From a bacterium (GTDB lineage Bacteria > Cyanobacteriota > Vampirovibrionia > Gastranaerophilales > Gastranaerophilaceae), in contig JAFQTK010000006.1 of NCBI GenBank assembly GCA_017409065.1, forward strand, positions 1 to 33,274: a stretch of DNA of 33,274 bases, read 5' to 3'. Of this stretch, positions 6,520 to 29,149 are shown piece after piece; position 1 is the first letter of the stretch; every line of letters starts with the position of its first letter. Below the pieces are notes generated by a model, which made no database searches, was not told where the DNA came from, and was given only the letters and a program-made list of their open reading frames with translations. Position numbers and translations under genes: made by a program.

Positions 6520-6610
6520 TTTTGTAACTAATTTATTAAGTTTTACAAAAAAGCGTTATTTTGCTAATAAAACGGGTATTATATAAATAAATAGAATTAA
6601 CGAGGTAACA

Positions 6611-9166
6611 ATGAAAAAGATTACATATAAAGCATTTACGTTAGCAGAATTGCTTGCAAGTTTGGCAATAATGATGGTTGTGGCTTTATTGGTAATGAAT
6701 GTTTTAAACAATACAAACTCAAAACAAAGAGAATTGATAGCAAGATTGGATAATTCATATCAAAAGTTGAACAGCATGATAGGAGTGGCTGTTTCAACTT
6801 CTGTATCGGAAAACGACAGAAATTGGGCAACATCTAAAGTCGGAACTATAAAAGGGCTGACCTGTACTGATGCTGCTGGAACTGATGTTGCAAATAAATC
6901 AGAATGCTTAAAAGAAGTGTTGACTTCGGTAAGTGGAAATGCCGTAAGTTGTGAAGGTAATGTAGGTGATTGTTTCAAGTCATTTGCTACAACAAATGCA
7001 CGATTAGAAGAAATATTTAGTAACGTAGGATATAGTGCTGATGATATGACAGCGATAAAACTTCCCGGTGATGTGCGAGTTGGGTTGTCATATATAGACG
7101 GAGAGTGTAATACAAATATTCCAATCGGAACAGATAGAGCGGGAACAATGCATTATCGCAAAGGTTGTGGATTTATGCTTGTTGATGTAAATGGAAATCA
7201 ACCACCTAATGCATTTGCAAACAATGGCGGAAATTCATTAGTAGACAGATTTATTTTGGTATTATCTAAAAATGATGTATTAAAAAGCAACCCTGTGATA
7301 GACGCAGTTGCAGGCTGTGCAGACGGAACTGTATATAATTCAACGACAAAAAGATGCGAAGAGCCAATTCCTTGTCCGGCTGATGAAGAAAGAAATGCAG
7401 CGATAACAGCGGCAAATGATGCCGATGTTTTATCAAAGGATTATCCTCTAGGAATGGACCGTACAGATTGTGTTATTTATAAATGCATAGACAATTCTGA
7501 CTTTGATCCCCAACTAAAGTGTCCTGAAGCATGCCCAGCAGCAGGTCAATTCAAACGAGGTGGTTTGTGGAAAAGTGAAGGCGGGGATTTAGAAAATAAT
7601 TGGTCAACAAAACAATGTTGTATCCCAATAGAAGACCAACAAGGATTGGCAAATATGGCAAATGACTTGAGTGCAAGTTATTGTTTAATAGATGATATAG
7701 AATTTGACAGAAACGGCCCTGGCACAGATGGGGATAAAGGTTGGACTCCGATAGGAACATCTTCAACTCCATTTACTGGTAATTTTTACGGTAATGGGCA
7801 TAAAATTAGCGGTTTGTATATAAACCGAGATGATTTAGCTGATATAGGATTGTTTGGAGCTATTAGTGGTACAGTACAAGATTTAGAGTTGGCAAATGCT
7901 GATATAAAATCTTCTTGTAGTGATGGTTCTTGTCATTTCTCAATATTTTCAGGTTTTGCCAATGATGCTGCTATAATTAAAAGAGTGAACACAGGTGGAC
8001 GTTTAGAACATTCAGGGGCAATCGGAGATAGTTATATTGGTGGTATTTCCGCTCGAATAAATACAGCAGATGCGAATGCAGAAATAATTGATTCTTATAA
8101 TACTGCAGACATTAATTTTAACCCCGCTACTCAAGTAGGTGGACGTTTGTTTATGGGTGGGGTAGTTGCTGATGCACAAAATTCACTTTCAATAAATTCT
8201 ATTATCAATAGTGGAAATATTACTATTGCGGCAAGTGTATTGTCTGCGGCACAGAATGAAATTGGCGGTGTTGTGGGACAAAACTTTGCAAATGATTTAA
8301 GCTCAATAATGAATTTGGGGAATATAACCATAAACGGTAATTCAAATGTCGGACGTATTGATATGGGCGGTGTCGTTGGGTTTACTCGACAGCTTAGTAA
8401 TGCAATAAATCTAGGCTCGATTAATAATGGTGGTGTATCCGGCTTTGTAAATTTAGGTGGAATTTCAGGTTTTATTTATGATGGGGATGACGATAGCTTT
8501 TTAGCAAATTATGGAGAAGTTGATTCCTCAACTACTGCAGATAGTATTAGTGTAGGTGGAATTGTTGGTACATCACAAACGGACAAAATAGCTAATGCGA
8601 TAAATGCTAGCACAAGAGCTTGGCTAGTGGGTTCTTCATCTGTCCCAATCACACTTTATAGAGTTATTCAGATCTTTAATAATTCTATTCCTTTTTCTTT
8701 GACGGATTTAACCCTTGAGCAATCATATCTTGTGACTTCGACTTTAAGCGTATCAGGTAGTAATACTATTAGTGGTGGACTAGTATATGGTGGAACTCAA
8801 GATCAGTTGAGACAAGCTTCTACTTTTTCAGCATTGAGTGCTGACACAACAAACTGGAATATTCAAGATGGATTTTATCCGTCTTTTCAAGCTGCAATAA
8901 TGCCGCCACAACCATTTAAGGATTGTAGAAATACGCCACCGGAAGAGGTTGGACAGTGTTATGATGTATTAAACACCCCTAATGCTTGGGATTTTAATTA
9001 CATATGGGCGTGGAGAATTCCGGCTGCCGGTGGTATTGTAGAACCGCCTGTTCTCAGATATCAGTGTAGTGATTATAAAGCAGTTGGAGGTTTTAATTGT
9101 TGTAAACCTTCTTATACCGCCACATCAGCACCAGACAACACTTTGCCTGTATGTCCTGTCCCATAA
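6611..9166 (+). CDS. Large type IV prepilin with GLUG-repeat region (putative pilus adhesin)
   Basis: An 851-residue prepilin. The leader MKKITYKA is cleaved before F9, giving a mature FTLAELLASLAIMMVVALLV N-terminus with the invariant Glu at +5. A pilin-like segment extends to about residue 245, followed by a cysteine-rich stretch (about 246-345). From about residue 385 there is a long beta-rich region of GLUG-type repeats, seen as FTGNFYGNGHKISGLYI, DIGLFGAISG, and repeated GGVVG / GGISG turns to about 670. A cysteine-containing tail ends the protein. GLUG repeats occur in surface proteins, so a tip adhesin or minor pilin role is inferred. The ribosome site is CGAGGTAAC. A second pilin gene follows after 34 bases. 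It is far longer than usual pilins (about 150-250). Confidence 0.85.
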   Translation: MKKITYKAFTLAELLASLAIMMVVALLVMNVLNNTNSKQRELIARLDNSYQKLNSMIGVAVSTSVSENDRNWATSKVGTIKGLTCTDAAGTDVANKSECLKEVLTSVSGNAVSCEGNVGDCFKSFATTNARLEEIFSNVGYSADDMTAIKLPGDVRVGLSYIDGECNTNIPIGTDRAGTMHYRKGCGFMLVDVNGNQPPNAFANNGGNSLVDRFILVLSKNDVLKSNPVIDAVAGCADGTVYNSTTKRCEEPIPCPADEERNAAITAANDADVLSKDYPLGMDRTDCVIYKCIDNSDFDPQLKCPEACPAAGQFKRGGLWKSEGGDLENNWSTKQCCIPIEDQQGLANMANDLSASYCLIDDIEFDRNGPGTDGDKGWTPIGTSSTPFTGNFYGNGHKISGLYINRDDLADIGLFGAISGTVQDLELANADIKSSCSDGSCHFSIFSGFANDAAIIKRVNTGGRLEHSGAIGDSYIGGISARINTADANAEIIDSYNTADINFNPATQVGGRLFMGGVVADAQNSLSINSIINSGNITIAASVLSAAQNEIGGVVGQNFANDLSSIMNLGNITINGNSNVGRIDMGGVVGFTRQLSNAINLGSINNGGVSGFVNLGGISGFIYDGDDDSFLANYGEVDSSTTADSISVGGIVGTSQTDKIANAINASTRAWLVGSSSVPITLYRVIQIFNNSIPFSLTDLTLEQSYLVTSTLSVSGSNTISGGLVYGGTQDQLRQASTFSALSADTTNWNIQDGFYPSFQAAIMPPQPFKDCRNTPPEEVGQCYDVLNTPNAWDFNYIWAWRIPAAGGIVEPPVLRYQCSDYKAVGGFNCCKPSYTATSAPDNTLPVCPVP

Positions 9167-9200: not shown

Positions 9201-9983
9201 ATGCAATTTAACTCATACATTGTTTCGGAAACTAAAACAGCTTTTTCGATTCCTGTTTCCAATCAAATATCTAATGCATTTACTTTGGCTGAAACTTTGA
9301 TTACTTTGTCAATTATTGGTGTTGTTGCTGCGATGACAGTGCCAACATTGATGAGCAACGTAAGTAAACAACAGAATTATGTCGGGCTGAAAAAAGCTTA
9401 CAATCAACTTCAAAATGCAATAAAAATGGTTCCTATCGCAGCAGGCTGTTCATCCGGTGATTATAGTTGTGTTCCTTGTTTGTATTATGATTCCTCATTA
9501 GGAGTTACAACTAATTGTAGTATGGATGTATTTACCGATCCTGATACCGGTGGGTTTAAGGATATTTCGCCATTAGCTGAACAATTTAAAACTACAAAAG
9601 TTTTTCATCGCGGCAACAAAGATGAAGGTTGTAAATTGGTATCTAAAATAGCGGGGCATGGTGATTCCGTGCCTTGTTTTCATACTATTGACGGTATGAT
9701 TTATGGCTCATCTCATGGCTTATTTGTGGATGTCAACGGTTTAAAAGGACCTAATAAAATAGGTCAAGATGAGTTTAGGTTTTTTGTCGCTTCAGAAACT
9801 AAAAATGGGGTGCAAGCCGGAACAGTTATGCCTTATGGGTCAAGACAACACTCTACTTATATGAATGATGATTCATTATATTGGAGAAATTCTAATTCTC
9901 TAAAACAGCCGGACAAAGTAACTGATTCTTGGGAATTATCAAAATTGACCGGAAAAGCTTTGGAACTTGGCAAAATTGAATAG
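9201..9983 (+). CDS. Type IV prepilin with a long leader
   Basis: A 260-residue prepilin. The cleavage site is A26/F27, giving a mature FTLAETLITLSIIGVVAAMT hydrophobic helix with Glu at +5, followed by KKAYNQLQNAIK. The body contains several cysteines (CSSGDYSCVPC and others), likely disulphide-bonded. The 26-residue leader is long for a type IVa-like pilin, and its NSYIVSETKTAFS segment reappears in the pseudogene at 18218. The ATG has a strong AAGGAAA site. It is probably cotranscribed with the GLUG pilin upstream and would be assembled by machinery such as that at 23073-29149. Confidence 0.88.
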   Translation: MQFNSYIVSETKTAFSIPVSNQISNAFTLAETLITLSIIGVVAAMTVPTLMSNVSKQQNYVGLKKAYNQLQNAIKMVPIAAGCSSGDYSCVPCLYYDSSLGVTTNCSMDVFTDPDTGGFKDISPLAEQFKTTKVFHRGNKDEGCKLVSKIAGHGDSVPCFHTIDGMIYGSSHGLFVDVNGLKGPNKIGQDEFRFFVASETKNGVQAGTVMPYGSRQHSTYMNDDSLYWRNSNSLKQPDKVTDSWELSKLTGKALELGKIE

Positions 9984-18217: not shown

Positions 18218-18466
18218 ATGGGATGCAATAATTTTCTTGGTTTTAATTCTTATATAGTTTCTGAAACTAAAACTGCGTTTTCAGTGCCTATGCCGGTACA
18301 ATTGTTCCTGAGGGTTCAAAGTTATCTGTTGATAAATTTTCGAATAAAAGCTTTTATTGGAAGGATGATAGCCTTTGTACTACAGAAAATGTAAAAAAAA
18401 CAACTGGAACCTGCTGTACATGCTTGTACAGGACGAGTTCTTGAAGAAAATGCAATGAATTATTAG
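18218..18466 (+). pseudogene. Internally deleted, frameshifted type IV prepilin gene
   Basis: From the ATG at 18218 the frame gives MGCNNFLGFNSYIVSETKTA and FSVP, matching the leader of the pilin at 9201. Coding similarity then jumps, with a shift of frame near 18290, to a pilin C-terminal segment: AGTIVPEGSKLSVDKFSNKS, then FYWKDDSLC. This matches the other gene's AGTVMPYGS and DDSLYW. A second shift near 18412 restores an ending ACTGRVLEENAMNY and TAG at 18466. About 190 codons, including the processing site and pilin helix, are missing, so it cannot make a pilin. A 58-residue frame, 18218-18394, remains open. Confidence 0.8.
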
Positions 18467-23980: not shown

Positions 23981-25834
23981 ATGGTAAACTTACAAACAAC
24001 AAAAAGTATTGGAAAGAGGATAGCACTAAGCACTTGTTTAGTTGCATTCTTGTCAGGGAATGCTGTTCCGTTGGCATCAGCTAATTCTTATTATAGTGGG
24101 GTTGAAGAAAATTCAGCAGGCTATACTTATGAAGAACCGATAACGGTAGAAGCTGAGCCGTCAAGAAATGTTACTTTGAAAGGCGAAGTTTCGTTGGCTA
24201 AAGGTGATCAAAAAGTTGCTGTAAGTTTGCGTGATTCTGATGTTAAACAAGTTTTGAGGATGTTTGCTGATAAAGCAGGGTTGAACGTTGTTTTCCATGA
24301 ATCAGTTTCCGGAAAAATAACTCTTGACCTTGTAAATGTAACTCTTAATAATGCCTTCAATATGGTTATGCAGATGGCAGAGCTTACTTATTCAATCGAA
24401 GATGATACTTTGATGGTTGCCAGTGCTTCTGCTGCTGAGAAATTGAACTTTACAAGAGAAGCAATGTCACCTATTGAAGTAAATTATTTAGATGCTAATC
24501 TTGTTGCGACATTTTTGAACAAAAACATATTTACAAAATCTCGTCCGGGACTTTCAAATACTGAAGTTGCGGTTGCTAACCCAAGAGAAAATGAAGTGCT
24601 TATTTTTGGTTCAAAAAATGACTTGGAAGTGGCTAAAAAGGTTGTTTCAGAAATTGACAAACCGCTTCGTGTAACATCATACAAAGTTAACCACACAACT
24701 CCAAAAGAAATGGCAACATTGATTTGTGATACTTGGTTGAAAGAAAAAGGTACAGAAGGCGATGAGCTTGATGAAAATAGTGATAGCGAAATCATTGTTG
24801 GTGGTGGCGTAATTGCTTGTACCGTTGATGGTGATGCAGAAAGCCAAGGTGAATTGGAATCATTAGAAGGTCAAGGCTTGAAGGTCGCTTACTTCCCGAC
24901 TCAAGGTGTTGTTAAGCTTTATGGCGGTACGGTAAAGCAAGCTGAAGAAATGAAAAGATTAATTGCTGATGCTGACAAAAAACAACCACAAGCAATGTTA
25001 GAAATGTCTATTGTTGAACTTAACGAATCAGGTTCAAGAACAATTAATAATACTTGGACGATATATTCTAGATTCTTTACAGGTACACTTGGCGGAAGTA
25101 CTGGGGTCGGGACAACTGATGAGTTGCGTCCCTTCGTAGTTACTGGATTAAGAGATTTTCCAAACCATGAAGCTAAATTTTATGATTTCAAAGATACTAG
25201 CGAAAAACCTACACCAATAAAAATGATAACTCGTTGGAATCATCCACCGCTTATAGCTGCAAATATCAATTGGGTTATTCGTAACGGCAACGGTAGAGTA
25301 TTATCAACCCCAAAAGTTATGATTACAAGTGGACAAGAGTCTGAAATTAATTTGACTTCCGACTATGTATCATCTGTTAGTACTCAATACTTAGATAATG
25401 GGTCGATGACACCTCAAGTTCAAAGAACATACAATATTTCTAATGATAATGGTATGAAAATTACCCTCATTCCATTCATCAGTCCTGATGGTTATGTATC
25501 TTTGAATATTAAACCTGAATATGCAACTATTAAAGACACTGTTCAGAATGAATTTGGTGATACTGCTGCGACTTTGTTGCAAAGAAGAAATTTGGACCTT
25601 AAAAATATCAGAGTTAAAGACGGCGAAACTCTTATTCTTGGTGGATTAGTTCAGGAAACAGAAACAAAAACTATTGTTAAACCTCCTGTTTTAGGTGATA
25701 TTCCTGGGATTGGTTGGCTTTTCAGAAGTACAGGAAGCACCAAGGAAAAATCTGAACTTGTAATTATGCTAACACCACATATCATCAAAGATGTTGAAGA
25801 TTTAACTCAAGATACTAACATTGAAGCCCTTTAA
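23981..25834 (+). CDS. Type IV pilus / type II secretion secretin (PilQ/GspD family)
   Basis: A 617-residue outer-membrane channel protein with a signal peptide (cleavage near PLASA, residue 34). A secretin/TonB N-terminal short domain occupies about residues 78-148 (VSLRDSDVKQVLRMFADKAG to YSIEDDTLMV). N-domain repeats follow, including YKVNHTTPKEMATLI and VKLYGGTVKQAEEMKRLIAD. The secretin core from about 430 holds VLSTPKVMITSGQESEIN, the IRVKDGETLILGGLVQE motif and LGDIPGIGWLFRSTGSTKEK, ending with ELVIMLTPHII. It begins 29 bases after the PilP-like gene with a GGAG site. Confidence 0.94.
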   Translation: MVNLQTTKSIGKRIALSTCLVAFLSGNAVPLASANSYYSGVEENSAGYTYEEPITVEAEPSRNVTLKGEVSLAKGDQKVAVSLRDSDVKQVLRMFADKAGLNVVFHESVSGKITLDLVNVTLNNAFNMVMQMAELTYSIEDDTLMVASASAAEKLNFTREAMSPIEVNYLDANLVATFLNKNIFTKSRPGLSNTEVAVANPRENEVLIFGSKNDLEVAKKVVSEIDKPLRVTSYKVNHTTPKEMATLICDTWLKEKGTEGDELDENSDSEIIVGGGVIACTVDGDAESQGELESLEGQGLKVAYFPTQGVVKLYGGTVKQAEEMKRLIADADKKQPQAMLEMSIVELNESGSRTINNTWTIYSRFFTGTLGGSTGVGTTDELRPFVVTGLRDFPNHEAKFYDFKDTSEKPTPIKMITRWNHPPLIAANINWVIRNGNGRVLSTPKVMITSGQESEINLTSDYVSSVSTQYLDNGSMTPQVQRTYNISNDNGMKITLIPFISPDGYVSLNIKPEYATIKDTVQNEFGDTAATLLQRRNLDLKNIRVKDGETLILGGLVQETETKTIVKPPVLGDIPGIGWLFRSTGSTKEKSELVIMLTPHIIKDVEDLTQDTNIEAL

Positions 25835-25842
25835 TAAATAAA

Positions 25843-27921
25843 ATGACACAAGCTACAGTTGATAAAATTAAACCTATGATAAACAAAGTCTACGCTGCTC
25901 GATTCAGCGTAGATATTGTTAATCAGCTGAAATTTATTCCGATTTGTGAACAAAAAGGAATATTTTTTGTTGCAATTACGACTGATTCAAAAAAAGCGGA
26001 AATTGAATCAAAAATTTCATCGTCTACAAATTTGAAGTTGAAATTTATATCACTTTCCCCTGAGGCATATCAACAGTTGTTTGATTATTATTTGAAAGAG
26101 GTTAATGCTACTGAGTCTGCTAAACCCGCTGAAACAACTCAGACTGCTCCTCAAACCGCACCTCAGGCTAATTTTTCTCAAAACGGAGAACCAAAACCAA
26201 GAAAAAGAATCGGAGATATTCTTAAGGATGGCGGGTACATAAATGAATCACAGTTGGTTGAAGCTTTGGCATATAGCAAGGCTAACGGGGTTCCTTTGGG
26301 TTCAGCTTTGGTTGAGAAAGGTTATATCTCTACTGATGCATTAAAACATGCTTTACAGGAACAATTAGATAAAGAAGCTGTCGATTCTAGTGAATTACAG
26401 GTTCAACCCAGTGTTTTGGAACTTTTACCTGTTGATTTTATTAAGGCTAATAAAGTTATTCCGCTTGCTTCTGACGGGAAGTGTATAACTGTTGGGATGG
26501 TAAATCCTAATGATAAAAAGACTTTAAATGCTATTGTTTATAGAACAGGCGGCTTGAGAGTTCAAGCAAAAATCCTGACTCATATTGAGTTTATGACTTA
26601 TATTGAGGAACATTATGGGCAGGCTTATAGAGATAATAAGGAATTGATAAAGGGGATCGAACAAGATGCTCTTGAATTTGATATAGGCGACGACTTAAAT
26701 AAACAGGTAGAAAGAGAACTTCAAGAAAAAACAGGAAATGTTGCTAAATTTGCAAACAAAATCGTAACAGATGCTATCGATAAAAAGGCGAGTGATATTC
26801 ACATTGAGCCACGTCTGGACGGATATGTTGTTAGATACAGAATTGACGGCGTTTTGAAACAAGTACTTGCTATACCTGAAAAGATTAGTGCTGCGGTGCT
26901 TACTCGTTTCAAAGTTCTTTCCAGAATGGATATTGCAGAATCAAGAAGACCTCAGGACGGTACATTTACTATCGGTTACAAAACTATTTCATACGATTTT
27001 CGTATTAACACTTTGCCGGTAGGGAATAAAGAAAAAATGGTTATCCGTGTATTGGCACCTGCTCAAACTTTGAGTGCTGCGGATAGGGTTATTAAGTTGC
27101 AAGGTGCGACGGAAGAAGAACATGAAATAATTAAGAAAATGACAACTGCACCTAACGGAATTATTTTGGCATCAGGTCCGACAGGTTCAGGTAAAACAAC
27201 AACTCTTTATTCGATTTTGAAAAGTGTAAACGACCCGAGTGTAAATATTACTACAATCGAGGACCCTGTCGAAATCAAAATTGATGGTATCAATCAATCA
27301 CAAATTAACGCAAAGGCAGGTATTACTTTTGCAAGTTGTATGCGTGCTATTTTGCGTCAAGACCCTGATATTATCTTGGTCGGTGAGATTCGTGACCTTG
27401 AAACTTTGGAAGTTGCTATTTCGGCAGCTTTGACAGGTCACCTTGTGCTTAGTACAATTCACACAAACTCAGCTGCTACAACTGTTACTCGTTTGATTGA
27501 AATGGGTGCGAAAGATTATCTTGTTTCTTCAACGCTTACGGGTGTAATTGCACAAAGACTTGTCAGACATTTGTGTCCTCACTGTAAAGAAGCTTATAAT
27601 GCAAGTTTGGAAGAAACTAAAAAAGTTATTCTTAATCCTGAGGATTATGATGAGTTTATGCAAAGAACACTTTATAGACCAAAAGGCTGTAAAGAATGTA
27701 ACTTTGAAGGTTACAAAGGTCGACTTGGTGTTTATGAAATTCTTCCGATTAATAAAGAAATTAAGAAACTAATTGCTCAAGGGGCTCATGATATCGAAAT
27801 TGAAGAAGCTGCTATCGGTATCGGAATGAAAACCTTGCAAACATGTTGTATGGGACATATTCTAAGAGGTGAAACTACTATTGAAGAATATGTTCGTGTA
27901 TTAGGTATGGTTAATGAATAG
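25843..27921 (+). CDS. pilB: Type IV pilus assembly ATPase PilB (GspE family)
   Basis: A 692-residue hexameric ATPase that powers pilin extraction and polymerisation. An MshEN-type N-terminal domain begins at RIGDILKDGGYINESQLVEA. The motor has Walker A GPTGSGKTTT (about residue 445), the Asp box TIEDPVEI, Walker B DPDIILVGEIRD and the His box TGHLVLSTIHTNS. A zinc tetracysteine site follows (CPHC and CKEC). About 100 residues before the MshEN region form an extra N-terminal segment with a Pro/Thr/Gln-rich linker. No ribosome site is obvious, so coupling to the secretin gene 8 bases upstream is likely. No PilT is present in the window. Confidence 0.93.
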   Translation: MTQATVDKIKPMINKVYAARFSVDIVNQLKFIPICEQKGIFFVAITTDSKKAEIESKISSSTNLKLKFISLSPEAYQQLFDYYLKEVNATESAKPAETTQTAPQTAPQANFSQNGEPKPRKRIGDILKDGGYINESQLVEALAYSKANGVPLGSALVEKGYISTDALKHALQEQLDKEAVDSSELQVQPSVLELLPVDFIKANKVIPLASDGKCITVGMVNPNDKKTLNAIVYRTGGLRVQAKILTHIEFMTYIEEHYGQAYRDNKELIKGIEQDALEFDIGDDLNKQVERELQEKTGNVAKFANKIVTDAIDKKASDIHIEPRLDGYVVRYRIDGVLKQVLAIPEKISAAVLTRFKVLSRMDIAESRRPQDGTFTIGYKTISYDFRINTLPVGNKEKMVIRVLAPAQTLSAADRVIKLQGATEEEHEIIKKMTTAPNGIILASGPTGSGKTTTLYSILKSVNDPSVNITTIEDPVEIKIDGINQSQINAKAGITFASCMRAILRQDPDIILVGEIRDLETLEVAISAALTGHLVLSTIHTNSAATTVTRLIEMGAKDYLVSSTLTGVIAQRLVRHLCPHCKEAYNASLEETKKVILNPEDYDEFMQRTLYRPKGCKECNFEGYKGRLGVYEILPINKEIKKLIAQGAHDIEIEEAAIGIGMKTLQTCCMGHILRGETTIEEYVRVLGMVNE

Positions 27922-27931
27922 CAGGTAAGAA

Positions 27932-29149
27932 ATGACTATATATTCATATATTGCGATAAGAAACGGAAAAGAAGAAGTCAGGGGTAAGGTAGAAGCTGAT
28001 GATAAACGTAGTGCCAGAGCCCAGATTAAACAACTTAATCTTATAGTAAAAGATATTTGGGAAGATACCATTAATAATGAGCAGAAGCAAGAGGTTTTGC
28101 CAACGGTTAAACTGCGTCCGCTTTCTTTGAAAGATAAGATTGATTTCGCTTCAACTTATCAAACTCTTGCAGGTGCAGGTGTTCCTGTTGTTGAAAGTTT
28201 GTTATTTATGGAACAAGAATCCGGTTCCGACAAGTTGCGTGCGTTGGCAAAAGAGCTTCGCAGACATATTTTGGCGGGTTCAACTTTTGCCGATACTGTT
28301 AAGCGTTATACAAATATTTTCGGTCAAATTTTTGTCGGGTTGACAAAAGCCGGTGAAGATTCTGGGGAAATGGAGAATACGATGGGTCGTATTATCGAAT
28401 TGCTCAGAAAGCAAGAAGCAATTAAAGGTAAGGTTATCGGTGCGTTAACTTATCCTGCGTTTGTTGTTGTTTTGGCTATTATTGTTATTATTGTAATGTT
28501 GGTTTTTGTATTCCCTAAATTTGCGGAAAACTTTAAAGAACAAGGTAAAGAGTTGCCGTGGGTTACTAATGCTTGTATTGTTGCAGGTGACTTTTTGAAA
28601 GACTATTGGTATGCGGTTATCATATTGGCAGTTGCTTTGATTGTAGGTTCAATATATTTGATGAAGTGGGAACCTGCAAGAAAAAGAATTGATACCTTTG
28701 CTTTGAAAATTCCACTTATTGGAAACTTATTGAAGTATGGTGGCTTATCAAACTTTTTAGCCGTTTTGCAAGTGGCTTATGAGGCAGGTGTTCCTATTGT
28801 AAACTGTCTTTCTTTAGCTAGTTTGACTGTTGAAAATGGTGTTATAAAGAAAGGAATGGAAAGTGCTAAGGCTAAGGTTCAAGGTGGTTTGCACCTTTCA
28901 CAGGCACTTAGAAGTACAGGTATTATGCCTAAAATGCTTTTGTTTATGATTCAAACAGGTGAACAATCAGGTAAATTGGGTATAATGCTTGAACAAGCTG
29001 TAAAATTTATAGATAAAGAGCTGGACAAATTCGTAGATAAGATGACAAAAGCAATTGAGCCGATTATGCTCATTGTTCTTGGCGGAATTGTTATGTTCTT
29101 TGCTTTGGCATTATATTTACCGTTATTCGGTATGATGCAACCTACGTAG
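27932..29149 (+). CDS. pilC: Type IV pilus inner-membrane platform protein PilC (GspF family)
   Basis: A 405-residue polytopic protein with two GspF domains. The first contains FASTYQTLAGAGVPVVESLL and the second FLAVLQVAYEAGVPIVNCLS. Three transmembrane regions are visible: LTYPAFVVVLAIIVIIVMLV, YAVIILAVALIVGSIYLM and the C-terminal IVLGGIVMFFALALYLPLFG. It couples PilB to pilin assembly. It starts 10 bases after pilB with an AGGTAAG site. Confidence 0.94.
   Translation: MTIYSYIAIRNGKEEVRGKVEADDKRSARAQIKQLNLIVKDIWEDTINNEQKQEVLPTVKLRPLSLKDKIDFASTYQTLAGAGVPVVESLLFMEQESGSDKLRALAKELRRHILAGSTFADTVKRYTNIFGQIFVGLTKAGEDSGEMENTMGRIIELLRKQEAIKGKVIGALTYPAFVVVLAIIVIIVMLVFVFPKFAENFKEQGKELPWVTNACIVAGDFLKDYWYAVIILAVALIVGSIYLMKWEPARKRIDTFALKIPLIGNLLKYGGLSNFLAVLQVAYEAGVPIVNCLSLASLTVENGVIKKGMESAKAKVQGGLHLSQALRSTGIMPKMLLFMIQTGEQSGKLGIMLEQAVKFIDKELDKFVDKMTKAIEPIMLIVLGGIVMFFALALYLPLFGMMQPT

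Follow-up and report, generated by a model that had tools for sequence, protein, structure and literature searches.

A Conserved Leader Peptide on a Set of Gastranaerophilales Prepilins and Its Candidate Role before Cleavage

Why should a prepilin leader that is cut off by prepilin peptidase be conserved in its amino-acid sequence? The question is raised by two loci within a 33,274-nucleotide stretch of DNA (the window) belonging to a 2.18-Mb Gastranaerophilales MAG (G000), where a pilin gene and a dead pilin copy carry closely similar leaders. A sequence-only reading of the window had suggested that the leader itself has a function. We compared it with the rest of its genome and with 79 relatives, one assembly per species, including the two congeners G001 (CASDWY01) and G002 (CALVAP01). 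Judging from these sequences, the leader is probably a translated, genus-specific tag on about 17 paralogous type IV prepilins, which would function before cleavage and sit within a 5' module that in relatives would include a switch. The host interactions of gut cyanobacteria are almost unknown, and a search of the open-access literature returned nothing on Gastranaerophilales/Melainabacteria pilins or phase variation, nor on homopolymer tracts in pilin genes.

Results

A Translated Leader on a Live and a Dead Pilin Gene

Positions 9207–9254 of the live gene encode FNSYIVSETKTAFSIP and positions 18242–18289 of the dead copy encode FNSYIVSETKTAFSVP. As originally counted, 8 codon pairs differ silently, 1 replaces Ile with Val, and 7 are identical, and the similarity of the pair is well past chance, a profile of the leader only matching the dead copy at E=6e-13. 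The second copy (18218–18466) is indeed a pseudogene, consisting of the leader, a junction, and then a frame-shifted C-terminal tail, with the helix and the middle gone. The concern that a later start might leave the live leader untranslated was not borne out: downstream of 9201, the first in-frame ATG, GTG, or TTG is the TTG at 9285, already within FTL. Given this and the GAAAGGAA preceding the ATG, making the pilin requires translation of the leader. Cleavage after Ala26, as the motif suggests, would give a leader of 26 residues; the description of this length as unusual did not hold, as the other intact copies all have longer leaders, of 32 to 43 residues.

The window pilin scored 18.3 bits against TIGR02532 (cut-off 16.3), the curated prepilin cleavage/methylation motif. 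Against Pfam N_methyl it reached 19.3, with a gathering score of 21.2, and a G001 homologue 23.9. The predicted structure has a helix at residues 28–80, with a mean pLDDT of only 70, and a fold search with this model found no significant match, the best PDB entry being gonococcal pilin 2hi2 (E 1.2). Processing and assembly genes are present as well: one Peptidase_A24 gene scored above the cut-off, and the PilQ/PilB/PilC-like genes in the window matched their models with E values from 1e-50 to 1e-160, each under its equivalog cut-off. The 851-aa prepilin-like protein encoded in the same apparent operon as the live pilin is far bigger than a usual pilin and is possibly a pilus-tip adhesin. Coordinates are collected in Table 1.

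Table 1. Positions of the pilin-related features in the window
Feature	Position	Strand	Remarks
Promoter-like element, variant CGTTAT-N14-GGGTAT	6554–6579	+	31 nt 5' of the gene that opens the apparent operon
Prepilin-like protein, 851 aa, gene 1 of the apparent operon	6611–9166	+	Weak N_methyl; ComGE-like N-terminus
Ribosome-binding-site-like GAAAGGAA	9186–9193	+	About 7 nt 5' of the ATG at 9201
Prepilin gene, 260 aa	9201–9983	+	TIGR02532 above cut-off
Conserved leader, codons 1–18 (MQFNSYIVSETKTAFSIP)	9201–9254	+	
Variable linker VSNQISNA, to Ala26	9255–9278	+	Predicted peptidase cut 9278/9279, from the A/FTLAE motif
N-terminal helix FTLAETL..., codons 1–25 of the mature pilin	9279–9353	+	
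58-aa ORF of the dead copy	18218–18394	+	Intact leader at 18242–18289
Frame-shifted C-terminal remnant of the dead pilin (AGTIVPEGSK...CTGRVLEENAMNY)	18292–18466	+	blastx/tblastn against pilins of the same genome
Type IV pilus machinery: PilQ/GspD-like secretin, PilB-like ATPase, PilC/GspF-like platform protein	23981–29149	+	Family models

The Leader Family and Its Selection

The leader profile identified 18 copies in G000: 15 on intact prepilins, two in gutted genes (the dead copy of the window and a second one on contig C29), and one cut off by the end of contig C55. The consensus MxF[ND]SYI[VI]S[ED]TKTAFS[VI]P is followed by a variable linker of 8–25 residues and then by A/FTLAETL, giving whole leaders of 26–43 aa. 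Other prepilins of the genome lack the leader, which therefore marks a subset of pilins, as had been supposed. The leader pilins (L292–L318) also have a common C-terminus, CTGRVLEEDAMNY, flanking a variable middle; it is retained in the dead copy of the window and diverged in the live window pilin.

Among the 15 intact genes, leader codons 3–18 have a pS of 0.68, which is saturated, and a pN of 0.092, corresponding to a dN/dS of about 0.055 (dN/dS values here are computed on saturated synonymous sites). In strictness, the leader comes close to the first 25 codons of the mature helix, where dN/dS is 0.037, while pN/pS is 0.47 at mature codons 26–52 and 0.72 in the remainder of the mature protein, with pS near 0.7 (0.65–0.70) throughout. 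Leaving out one gene at a time kept the leader pN/pS between 0.12 and 0.14, and leader dN/dS was also low in the congeners (0.18 in G001 and 0.09 in G002). The purifying selection suspected from two copies was thus upheld for the family, at a dN/dS of 0.055–0.075, far from 1, and by these codon comparisons selection on the leader peptide at the amino-acid level is real.

A Shared Promoter Element

In addition to the leader, 14 of the 15 intact genes have a GGTTAT-like box and, after 13–17 nt, a GGGTATA-like box 32–35 nt 5' of the ATG. All seven exact matches to GGTTAT-N13-15-GGGTATA in G000 (listed form GGTTAT-N14-GGGTATA) lie upstream of leader pilins, and the reversed pattern, searched genome-wide as a control, had 0 matches; most of the leader pilins thus have in common a promoter of a non-housekeeping type. 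The window pilin has no such element directly upstream, its apparent operon starting after the variant given in Table 1. Only one Peptidase_A24 gene was found in the genome, and a gene for a SigF-like sigma factor overlaps it (contig C55, L339, 1327–3122), on the contig whose end also bears a leader start; the best model for the sigma factor is SigF NF005644, with 186.7 bits against a cut-off of 261. We infer that this sigma factor may read the GGTTAT-N14-GGGTATA promoter. The sequences upstream of the leader genes in G001 and G002 differ from the G000 element, and the promoter is therefore not the feature common to the genus.

Leader Homologues in Related Species

The G000 leader profile was clear in only one of the 79 relatives, G001, which has 25 copies of MxFDSYITSGTKTAFTV; two other genera gave just borderline matches of 10 residues. 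The G002 leader is a more distant homologue, MNFDSYIVKNVEIAQTVPL. M-x-F-[DN]-S-Y-I and Ala14 are kept in all three species, and the upstream DNA is different in each. The expectation that the leader should recur beyond the window was thereby confirmed, on 15 intact paralogues and in two congeneric species. A contig scan with the window pilin alone as the query found no relative, and with a G001 homologue as the query it found 47 loci.

These patterns bear on the explanation that the peptide is functionless and that its similarity reflects the recent ancestry of a DNA-level 5' cassette, comprising promoter and start, spread by duplication or gene conversion. The leader pilins form species-specific clades in our tree, with L115 and L118 outlying (given its long branches and unsettled bootstrap values, we use the tree for the species-level clades and the place of these two loci alone). 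Some G001 contigs end within the repeated leader region, and in G002 the leader and the C tract described below are also present on the divergent mature pilins L115 and L118, onto which they would have moved, all consistent with such a spread. In G000, however, synonymous sites are as saturated in the leader as in the mature part but nonsynonymous differences are few, the window copy has the leader without a promoter directly upstream, and the promoters vary among species with the leader core kept. Recent gene conversion as the source of leader identity in G000 was rejected on the saturation, as a pS that is equally high and saturated in the leader and the mature part argues against recent homogenization. 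A DNA cassette is already disfavoured on these grounds, and we regard it as unlikely.

Another explanation takes the leader for a relict prepilin start, with TKTA/F[ST]V as a cleavage site decayed after the fusion of two prepilin N-termini, and truncated ORFs in G001 do read MKFDNYITSSTKTAFTLAEILITL. Both of these ORFs may nevertheless be linker deletions between short repeats, and G002 has EIAQT at this place, with no A/F pair. The relict double cleavage site was rejected on its absence from G002, and we find a relict start scarcely credible.

Three further observations concern the relatives. In G001, a conserved, terminator-like hairpin (CAAGCC...GGCTTG and a T run) is found upstream of leader genes (L124, L128, L137), about 65–85 nt before the leader ATG. 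Pilin number varies extremely, with at least 150 prepilin-type genes in the 2.3-Mb genome of G042 (same family, genus g2) and 5 in G030. Prepilin leaders at L076, L084, L090, and L239 (G015, G042) hold repeat-like insertions, CHSELDSESI or CHPELVSGS, which look like a palindromic repeat element put in frame.

Homopolymeric Tracts and Reading Frame

A homopolymer of 7 C or G does not occur in the window, and its pilin gene thus carries no hypermutable tract. The leader in G002 continues into C9–C13, as read, like the other tract lengths given here, from single short-read assemblies, one per species. The tract lies between the start codon and the mature frame, and its length sets the frame: counted from the ATG with the ribosome site, each of the 10 genes whose tract is uninterrupted is out of frame, as is L109 with an interrupted one, and both tract-less genes are in frame. 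In the tract genes, the frame opened by the leader ATG stops soon 3' of the tract and the pilin follows in a different frame. We looked for alternative starts in the mature frame of the G002 genes and found none with a ribosome site, L104 having an unsupported ATG. Near-identical flanks carry C12 or C13, and tract length therefore differs among paralogues. Random lengths predict one-third of the genes to be in frame, and none was observed ((2/3)^10 = 0.017), for which selection for the OFF state, assembly bias, or productive slippage are possible reasons.

C/G tracts in prepilin leaders recur across other genera of the family. In G014, from another genus, leaders of the form MFN[IL]KNK.. have C7–C9 and 7 of 19 are in frame; in G023, a C9/G9 tract lies at most 260 bp upstream in 20 of the 24 pilins listed. 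The number of C9+ tracts per genome has a median of 12 in the family (maximum 111) versus 2 in the order's other families (maximum 6). In G000 itself, C8+ tracts number 19; about a dozen lie in the leaders of other prepilins, mainly of a second subfamily whose leaders read MKNLNLLGGGG or MKKVDLVGGGG. The second subfamily, in which MKNLNLL/MKKVDLV is followed by G9–G12, comprises at least 11 copies, both in-frame and out-of-frame ones (L275–L290, on contigs C12, C13, C18, C26, C27, C36, C37, C73, C131, and C150). The longest tract seen in G000 is an intergenic G15 between two long ORFs (L278, contig C19 near 12884).

In G002 and in other genera, the tract comes directly after the leader. The leader could therefore owe its conservation chiefly to a phase switch, as the stable half upstream of the tract, supplying a good start codon and an open frame that leads into the tract; it could have been retained in G000 after tract loss, and a G000 pilin with a degenerate leader (contig C6) does carry a C10 tract. 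An open frame would suffice for the switch, however, with no need for a fixed peptide, and the 15 tract-less copies are still under strong selection, making this account a rather unlikely one. Since the G000 leader copies are tract-less, the tract cannot explain their conservation, and two processes are involved.

Genes in the OFF frame would yield leader peptides of roughly 20–35 aa, and the two gutted copies in G000 have retained the leader frame. Both observations would fit a leader that acts as a signal peptide, either released by the peptidase cut or made on its own from OFF-frame genes and gutted copies. The gutted copies may just be recent, however, and we consider a signal peptide of this kind very unlikely.

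Discussion

We favor the explanation that the leader is a tag on one set of pilins. Its conservation at the amino-acid level suggests that it acts before its removal by prepilin peptidase, and its step would most likely be at the membrane or the assembly machinery, where it may serve as a targeting or sorting element; the signal peptide of Synechocystis PilA1 offers a parallel that makes membrane targeting or sorting the most likely function. The 5' module would consist of promoter, ribosome site, leader, and variable linker. In G000, most copies have a SigF-type-looking promoter, lack a tract, and are always in frame. In G002, the sequence shows that the length of the poly-C tract determines if translation begun at the leader ATG continues in the pilin frame, with switching probably arising by slipped-strand mispairing.

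A broader proposal, which we put forward tentatively and with some doubt, is that leaders in Gastranaerophilaceae are dual-purpose, giving a co-regulated pilin set its protein address before cleavage and, in several lineages, holding a slipped-strand switch, such that a cell with tens to more than 100 pilins would express a stochastic combination. If true, a cleaved prepilin leader would have a selected sequence of its own, and gut cyanobacteria would have a phase-variable pilin repertoire of a size undescribed for them in the open-access literature searched.

Type IVb prepilins have a leader of about 25–30 residues before the cleavage motif, and the long leader found here resembles theirs. 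Unlike in type IVb systems, the machinery genes of the window have a type IVa/T2SS-like appearance, and the sequence of the leader is specific to its lineage.

In Synechocystis PCC 6803, Ser3 in the PilD-removed signal peptide of PilA1 alters the association of the prepilin with SecY and, in simulation, also the contact with membrane lipids (PMC8546353), and the group 3 sigma factor SigF drives pilA1 transcription from TAGGC/GGTAA (PMC2758279). Like PilA1, the pilins described here have an N-terminal peptide that is predicted to be cut off by prepilin peptidase. The peptide here differs in being 26–43 aa long, common to about 17 paralogues, and restricted to the genus, and the promoter GGTTAT-N14-GGGTATA is unlike the TAGGC...GGTAA of pilA1.

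The tracts resemble the contingency loci of Neisseria and Campylobacter, known for homopolymeric-tract phase variation (PMC5084427, PMC8355987), in that C/G tracts lie in the reading frame near the 5' end of surface-protein genes and in-frame and out-of-frame paralogues coexist. In contrast to those loci, the window copy has no tract, and where the tract is present, it is part of the prepilin leaders encoded by tens of paralogous pilin genes, in a non-photosynthetic cyanobacterial family.
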